A stretch of DNA of 41,126 nucleotides from a virus: IMG/VR virus record IMGVR_UViG_3300022752_002575, positions 1 through 41,126 of that record. One strand, 5' to 3'. Position 1 is the first letter of the stretch, and each line of letters begins with the position of its first letter. The translations under genes were made by a program, and so were the position numbers. This document shows positions 8,543 to 9,802 of this stretch, piece by piece. The notes beneath the pieces are model-generated. The model was not told the DNA's origin, made no database searches, and was given only the letters and a program-made list of their open reading frames with translations.

Positions 8543-8571
8543 ATTATATATGACTTATACTTATATGTCAA
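8543..8571 (-). promoter_or_regulatory. perfect-consensus sigma70 promoter
   Basis: TTGACA, 17-nt spacer, TATAAT on the minus strand. The TGA stop of the preceding gene lies inside the -35 box. With a start about 7 nt past the -10, transcription would begin within a few nt of the nuclease ATG at 8533. Confidence 0.8.
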
Positions 8572-8891
8572 CCTGGCTGTTGTAGAGTTTTTGCTGCGGC
8601 CTTTTTAGCAGTGTTCATTATGTTATTCTGTCCTTGACTGGCAGTGGCTTCTGGCTTTTCCTTTGTTTTCAACGTGATACCTTGTCCGTCAAAGTTATGT
8701 ACTATTTTCTTTAACTGAGGAATGCTGTCATATTCTGCTTTAAAAGTTTCGTAGTCCATGTGTATGCCACTTACATTACGCAGCATATTGGATATCTGGT
8801 CCCAAGTATAAGTAGCCATTTGTTGCTTGGCATCAGCTTGGTTGCGTAGTTGGAGTAAGATGCGGATAAGATTATCCGCACCTTCAGTTAG
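8568..8891 (-). CDS. -1 frame extension of the 8888-9802 gene (or separate 83-aa gene from 8819)
   Basis: This frame is open from 8921 to 8568. The only ATG, at 8819, gives 83 aa (MATYTWDQISNMLRNVSGIH..., C-terminal Ala/Lys/Gln-rich tail) but has no Shine-Dalgarno. The codons before it (LTEGADNLIRILLQLRNQAD then AKQQ) read as real protein and join the preceding gene exactly after an A AAA AAC heptamer with a -1 shift. The shifted product would be 304 + 107 = 411 aa. Alternatives: an independent 83-aa gene, or a single-base error in the nine-A run. The sequence has two charged helices and no known motif; function unknown. Confidence 0.6.
   Translation of the reverse strand, partial: LTEGADNLIRILLQLRNQADAKQQMATYTWDQISNMLRNVSGIHMDYETFKAEYDSIPQLKKIVHNFDGQGITLKTKEKPEATASQGQNNIMNTAKKAAAKTLQQPG
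8862..8879 (-). other. stem-loop downstream of the slippery site
   Basis: GCGGATAATCTTATCCGC on the minus strand folds into a 7-bp stem with a 4-nt loop. It begins 11 nt after the slippery heptamer. It lacks a following T-run, so it is not an intrinsic terminator. Confidence 0.55.
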
Positions 8892-9802
8892 TTTTTTTTT
8901 GAACTTAGAATAGTGCCTAATCTACGGCTGTATTCAATTGATTCACGCTTGGCACGACCTGCCATTTCAACTCCGCCAGCTGCTGGTTCAGCTGCGTCAA
9001 ATTCGTCGCCCGAGGGAAATTCTTCTGAGCCCATATTAGCTGCCATGTCTTCGCCTGGTGCTGGTGTTGGAGCGCCTTCTCCTGTTCCTGGTGCTTCTTC
9101 GCCTGTTAATATTGCCACTGCCTGTGCTAGAGTTTGACGATTGCCTTCTAAACAAGTATAAATTTCATCTAATGCTGGCTTTACTTTACCAGCAAATTGT
9201 CCGCTTATTTCGCTACCTAATTCGTCTCTTATAGAGTCTACTAATTCTAACATGGTTTCGGACTTTAGGCTGGCTACATCTTCAAGCCAACCTGTGATCT
9301 TATCCACCATGTCTCGTGCGCTCATAATTAGAGCGGCCTTTTCTTCTTCACCCTCACGCAGAGTTCTACGATTCAATGCTGTGCGTAGAACTTCCATGGC
9401 CTCTTCTAAACTTTCTTTCTTAGCCATCTTAGTGGCTGTGGCATACATTACTTCTTCACCACGATCACCATAACGTTTGCTAAAGTCGCCTTTGACTTTC
9501 TTCATGCCTTTAACATATTTTTCACGCTTGCCTTCTTCATCCTTGCTAAGACTACGCTCTGAAATTGCTGTGGTTAACACATCTAAGAACATACGATCTT
9601 TATGATAGTCATTGCTTTCATAAACAGCATCAAATTCTTTACTGCTTTCAAAGCTGGCAATTTTATCCATAACACGATCACGGGCTACCTGTAACTGTTC
9701 TAAGGTAAAGCCATCAAGGTTTAATCTATAGCCAAACTTTTTAGCCATACTTTCATTAAGTGTTTTACTAGTCTTTGGATGCGAAAGGTCTCTAATCTGC
9801 AT
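8888..9802 (-). CDS. phage protein of unknown function, 304 aa (zero-frame product)
   Basis: Starts MQIRDLSHPKTSKTLNESMA. Residues 25-110 are helical and charged; a stretch KYVKGMKKVKGDFSKRYGDR followed by GEEVMYATATKMA is typical of T4-like marine phage proteins that I recall only as hypothetical. Residues 215-275 are a low-complexity Pro/Gly/Ala/Glu linker (GEEAPGTGEGAPTPAPGEDM). The C-terminus is basic (AGRAKRES) and ends SSKKN at the A-run. A late box and SD (TTTAGGA) precede the ATG. Length and linker fit a scaffold or virion accessory protein, but that is a guess. It may continue by frameshift into the 107-aa extension. Confidence 0.8.
   Translation of the reverse strand: MQIRDLSHPKTSKTLNESMAKKFGYRLNLDGFTLEQLQVARDRVMDKIASFESSKEFDAVYESNDYHKDRMFLDVLTTAISERSLSKDEEGKREKYVKGMKKVKGDFSKRYGDRGEEVMYATATKMAKKESLEEAMEVLRTALNRRTLREGEEEKAALIMSARDMVDKITGWLEDVASLKSETMLELVDSIRDELGSEISGQFAGKVKPALDEIYTCLEGNRQTLAQAVAILTGEEAPGTGEGAPTPAPGEDMAANMGSEEFPSGDEFDAAEPAAGGVEMAGRAKRESIEYSRRLGTILSSKKN
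8891..8897 (-). other. candidate -1 ribosomal frameshift (slippery) heptamer
   Basis: Nine A then C: in the zero frame it reads TCA AAA AAA AAC TAA, so A AAA AAC is in the correct X XXY YYZ phase directly before the stop. A -1 shift reads CTA ACT GAA into the downstream ORF. A nine-A run can also cause polymerase slippage. Confidence 0.6.

Follow-up and report, generated by a model that had tools for sequence, protein, structure and literature searches.

Probable programmed −1 frameshifting at a conserved nine-adenine run in a gene of uncultured T4-like phages

The window, which is the whole 41,126-nucleotide stretch of viral DNA analyzed here (IMG/VR record IMGVR_UViG_3300022752_002575), carries on its minus strand a gene for a 304-residue protein that ends in a run of nine adenines (A9), the only A or T run of at least nine in the 41 kb (Table 1). 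An earlier reading made without database searches (the sequence-only reading) had claimed that an A AAA AAC heptamer lies in phase just before the stop codon and that the −1 frame is open past it, and both claims are borne out. The heptamer is in phase with the zero frame; read from position 8891, the −1 frame gives LTEGADNLIRILLQLRNQADAKQQ followed by MATYTW..., which predicts a trans-frame product of 411 residues. A hairpin with the arms AAGGTGCGGATA (8884-8873) and TATCCGCATCTT (8868-8857) and a 4-nucleotide loop begins 6 nucleotides past the heptamer and has a folding energy of −18.3 kcal/mol. The sequence-only reading had described a 7-bp hairpin 11 nucleotides away; a downstream hairpin is present, but the 7 bp are the inner part of a 12-bp structure that starts closer to the heptamer. 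A terminator function of this hairpin was considered and rejected. The coding strand has no T run after the stem, and on the opposite strand the stem stops 7 nucleotides before the T9 and a terminator scan gave none there. A 12/12 match to a sigma-70 type promoter (TTGACA-17-TATAAT, 8543-8571, minus strand) overlaps the end of the extension, with the extension's stop TGA inside its TTGACA, and faces the exonuclease gene at 8533-7847.

Table 1. Coordinates of the features at the recoding locus, numbered by position in the window.
Feature	Position	Strand	Description
Zero-frame gene, 304 residues	8888..9802	−	Ends TCA AAA AAA AAC TAA
A9 run	8892..8900	−	Tandem slippery sites A AAA AAA (8900-8894) and A AAA AAC (8897-8891)
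Zero-frame stop TAA	8888..8890	−	Directly adjoins the heptamer
Hairpin, putative stimulator	8857..8884	−	12 bp, loop ATCT, 6-nucleotide spacer TAACTG
−1-frame extension, 107 codons	8571..8891	−	Stop at 8570-8568; predicted winged-helix domain and disordered tail
Internal ATG of mechanically called 83-residue ORF	8817..8819	−	Judged not to be a gene start: not conserved, no Shine-Dalgarno, omits first domain helix

The 304-residue protein is predicted with modest confidence (mean pLDDT 66) to be all-helical, with a long helical hairpin at residues 152-233, a disordered linker at 235-285 and a last helix that extends into the run. The protein is probably virion-associated, judging by a single PHROG match, that of residues 133-258 to phrog_14154 'virion structural protein' (E 6e-9). 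Chaperone families were absent from the PHROG, Pfam and NCBIfam matches, and no tape measure protein was recognized in the scanned part of the window's proteins. Residues 77-130 (9413-9574, minus strand) share about 48-61% identity with hypothetical Synechococcus phage proteins, which have no likeness to the 304-residue protein outside this segment, as if the segment were a mobile module. The neighboring ORFs on a 364-kb contig (L143, positions 280000-299999) encode 778, 538, 239, 301 and 144 residues and are much like those of the window in size and order; the window may derive from a jumbo-size relative.

With the 304-residue protein as query, viral contigs yielded 80 loci, and four queries with extensions added more. 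A profile of the extension detected 76 distinct forms among the retrieved loci, and 52 distinct run-bearing sites were left once duplicates were removed. Alignment of homologues had been proposed in the sequence-only reading, and it shows that the run, its phase and the open −1 frame are shared by all 52 distinct sequences. The run is kept in every distinct relative that has the extension next in the −1 frame, as A9 in 50/52 and as A10 in the other two (L017 and L136), whose last codon is AAA so that the frame relation is unchanged. The codon before the run is TCA (42 sites), GGA (6) or CCA (4), giving Ser, Gly or Pro and always ending in A. The last codon is AAG in 45 sites, AAC in five and AAA in two. 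The phase NNA AAA AAA AAR/C holds throughout, and the zero-frame stop follows immediately or one codon later in 52/52. Run, phase, nearby stop and open −1 frame persist down to about 21-40% extension identity. Elsewhere in 337 kb of the relatives' loci there is only one other same-strand A9 and one T9. The use of AAG in 45 of the 47 cases with a final Lys is not codon bias, because the AAA:AAG ratio of Lys codons in the relatives' loci is about 76:24; it is what would be expected if the run were held at nine or if AAG were the preferred slippery codon. Judged by this conservation, the −1-frame arrangement at the run is not due to chance.

The extension aligns across the run-bearing phages at 21-98% identity to that of the window, and position 3, just past the junction, is an invariant Glu. 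The dN/dS ratio is 0.03-0.25 in all 19 pairs, of 20, for which it was computable (synonymous changes were saturated in the other pair), and by this measure the extension is under purifying selection. AlphaFold2 predicts a confident domain over extension residues 3-78 with the order H1-S1-H2-H3-S2-S3, as in a winged helix, and its first helix (residues 3-21) begins at the frame junction. The best Foldseek matches in the PDB are mostly winged-helix domains and are weak (E 0.03 and above), and the structural comparison (Foldseek/VIA-align) gave Z values of at most 6.8 with an rmsd of 2.7 over 68 residues. The extension is accordingly described here as a predicted winged-helix domain. No relative of the extension or of its separate-gene forms was found among the cultured phages searched or in the bacterial genomes searched, and a sequence search of the PDB gave nothing convincing.

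The hairpin was analyzed across the clade of the window (clade I), taking the structure from one of its members. In 23 distinct clade I sequences, the pairing is kept in 94.5% of cells compared with 35-46% in slid controls, and changes on both sides of a pair occur in 22 cells compared with 1-4. The covariation score of 0.363 was reached by 0/500 shuffles; shuffling loses the relatedness of the sequences, which makes sliding the fairer control. Compared with synonymous recodings that keep the protein, the downstream segment has z scores of −3.1 to −8.0 in 26/27 clade I sequences (−5.7 in the window), and the sole clade I sequence without the hairpin is L010. In clade I the structure signal is restricted to the segment immediately downstream of the run (mean z −3.93). 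As judged from these sequence comparisons, conservation of the hairpin in the clade of the window exceeds codon constraint and the hairpin covaries. Clade II (n = 16 distinct; L028, L029, L037-L065 in part, and L094-L105) has A9 without a significant hairpin (mean z −0.78), and its zero frame ends with KKK, one codon and the stop. A third group (n = 9) has an intermediate signal of −2.0 at offset 0 and −2.4 at offset 15, with some stems lying further downstream. Rfam gave no relevant match.

Stimulators upstream of the run were also sought. A Shine-Dalgarno stimulator at the usual distance was not found in clades I and II; most of clade I has an AGG 18 nucleotides before the heptamer, which is beyond the usual range, and clade II lacks it. 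For an upstream stem-loop, clades I and II gave mean z values from −0.8 to 0.4, and clade III a mean z of −1.5.

It is almost certain that recoding into the −1 frame takes place at the run. The gene probably makes two proteins by programmed −1 ribosomal frameshifting at A9, stimulated by the hairpin. Most ribosomes would stop at the TAA and release the 304-residue all-helical protein, and some would slip one base back on the tandem site A AAA AAA AAC, aided by the 12-bp hairpin 6 nucleotides downstream. The slipped ribosomes would read 107 further codons to give a 411-residue protein with a winged-helix-like end. The ratio of the two forms would matter, presumably for particle assembly or for tethering the protein to nucleic acid. 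Established cases support the components of this model: −1 frameshifting is proven for each of AAG, AAC and AAA as last codon, in E. coli insertion sequences or in dnaX (PMC4066793), and the spacer before a downstream stimulator is usually 5-9 nucleotides (PMC5009743).

The main alternative is transcriptional slippage, in which RNA polymerase adds one A (or loses two) at A9 and normal translation then gives the 411-residue protein, either on its own or in combination with ribosomal frameshifting. A run of 9 A or T makes bacterial RNA polymerase slip efficiently in vivo, and Thermus dnaX makes use of this (PMC5009743). Nine adenines are more than one heptamer needs, and their conservation counts against a ribosome-only reading; A9 also constitutes two overlapping slippery heptamers, so run length alone is not decisive. 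The fixed length of nine or ten, the A that always ends the codon preceding the run and the 16 distinct clade II sequences that retain A9 without a hairpin also fit slippage by the polymerase. The lost hairpin of L010 and the lack of an upstream Shine-Dalgarno at the customary spacing weigh against the ribosomal reading too. This explanation stays alive because of the strict nine adenines and the hairpin-less clade, but we consider it fairly unlikely. The downstream hairpin is still untranscribed while the polymerase is on the run, which argues for ribosomal frameshifting, and yet it covaries at the spacing of a ribosomal stimulator. The base after the first nine adenines (G 45, C 5, A 2, T 0) fits a good A-site codon, and the upstream stem-loop signal is absent from clades I and II. 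Transcriptional slippage would not need the constant codon phase, although common descent explains the phase too. Considering together the covarying hairpin at 6 nucleotides, the constant codon phase and the preference among last codons, the slipping in the clade of the window is most likely done by the ribosome and not by RNA polymerase. Ribosome sliding on poly(A) was rejected as the principal mechanism: it requires about A11, and A9 or A10 gives little product (PMC4363877).

Two further readings dispense with slippage. The extension could be a second gene, with translation beginning through termination-reinitiation or at the internal ATG, an arrangement that does occur in two outer lineages and that the ATG kept as second −1-frame codon in 8/52 run-bearing sites would suit. 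The other 44/52 sites have no ATG there, and in 48/52 the first 45 −1-frame codons include no start codon that has a Shine-Dalgarno core. The sequence-only reading had stated that the ATG of the 83-residue ORF lacks a Shine-Dalgarno, which holds, since no core was found there; moreover, close relatives have Leu, Val, Ile or Thr in place of this Met, which lies behind the first predicted helix of the domain. The two-gene reading is very improbable and largely refuted: separate genes with their own start sites and no run, named beforehand as a refuting case, were found only in the two outer lineages and not in that of the window. The last reading is that a sequencing error has split one ORF (the true run being A10) or that the gene is degenerating. 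A nine-base homopolymer is error-prone, and the sequence-only reading had cautioned that a lost A, by error or mutation, would look the same. This caution fails because independent contigs all carry the run, which occurs in >100 loci from many metagenomes and as 52 distinct alleles. The lone A8 (L141) sits at a contig end, the two A10 sites keep the frame through their last codon AAA, and purifying selection still acting on the extension speaks against degeneration. Error or decay can be practically dismissed.

The two-gene lineages place the −1 arrangement in an evolutionary setting. In both, the run is missing and the extension has its own ATG. In outer lineage 1 it is a separate gene beginning MKLLE..., whose ATG overlaps or adjoins the stop codon of the first gene (TAATATG, TAATG). 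In lineage 2 (L145-L164) the first gene ends TAAGGAG, which provides a Shine-Dalgarno, and is followed by ATG-RLFE.... When the tree is rooted on lineage 1, lineage 2 nests inside the run-bearing lineage with a support of 0.95 for the first protein and 0.997 for both, with the limit that lineage 1, the outgroup, was not itself recovered as a strict clade and that the rooting is uncertain. This nesting suggests that lineage 2 returned to two genes, possibly by loss of frameshifting. A broader scenario, which is possible but doubtful, is that one family switched repeatedly between a gene with an overlapping start, a gene with a strong Shine-Dalgarno, hairpin-driven ribosomal frameshifting and a clade with A9 alone that maybe relies on RNA polymerase slippage; A9 would be usable by both ribosome and polymerase, with lineages leaning either way.

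The family is a natural experiment in the passage from a two-gene arrangement to frameshifting and perhaps back, and in what decides between slippage by the ribosome and slippage during transcription. Natural variants of the site are already at hand in L010, which has lost the hairpin, and in the A10 sites of L017 and L136. The full form of the gene family was found here in uncultured phages only, and gene callers will overlook the extension or call it as a small separate gene. A published description of the gene was not found in the literature searched, which was mainly open-access. T4-like phages gain a deeply conserved recoding event; as cited in PMC10885494 and PMC12846349, Vladimirov et al. 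2022 reported that T4-like tail chaperones are made without frameshifting.

The site in the window adds one more case to a type of phage recoding that is already known. Phage proteins extended by frameshifting include the T3/T7 coat protein, proteins with Ig-like domains and lambda G/GT (PMC5009743). In T3/T7 gene 10 and the Ig-like C-terminal domains, some copies of a particle protein likewise gain a C-terminal domain through a frameshift close to the end of the gene (PMC5009743). No sequence relation to these was seen, the domain added here has a predicted winged-helix-like and not an Ig-like fold, and the setting is a T4-like genome with an A9 site and a near hairpin. The lambda tail assembly chaperones gpG/gpGT share the −1 shift right before the stop that gives a minor long form, but the site here is A9 instead of the G-GGA-AAG type and the protein matches no chaperone family. 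The −1 sites of E. coli dnaX and the IS3 family (A AAA AAG with a stem-loop) have the same type of heptamer and a stem-loop 5-9 nucleotides downstream; the present site differs in its gene, in its nine-A run and in lacking an upstream Shine-Dalgarno at the usual distance. The nine-base homopolymer of this locus is also a feature of Thermus dnaX and other A9/T9 transcriptional slippage sites; in the clade of the window it comes with a conserved downstream hairpin and a fixed codon phase.
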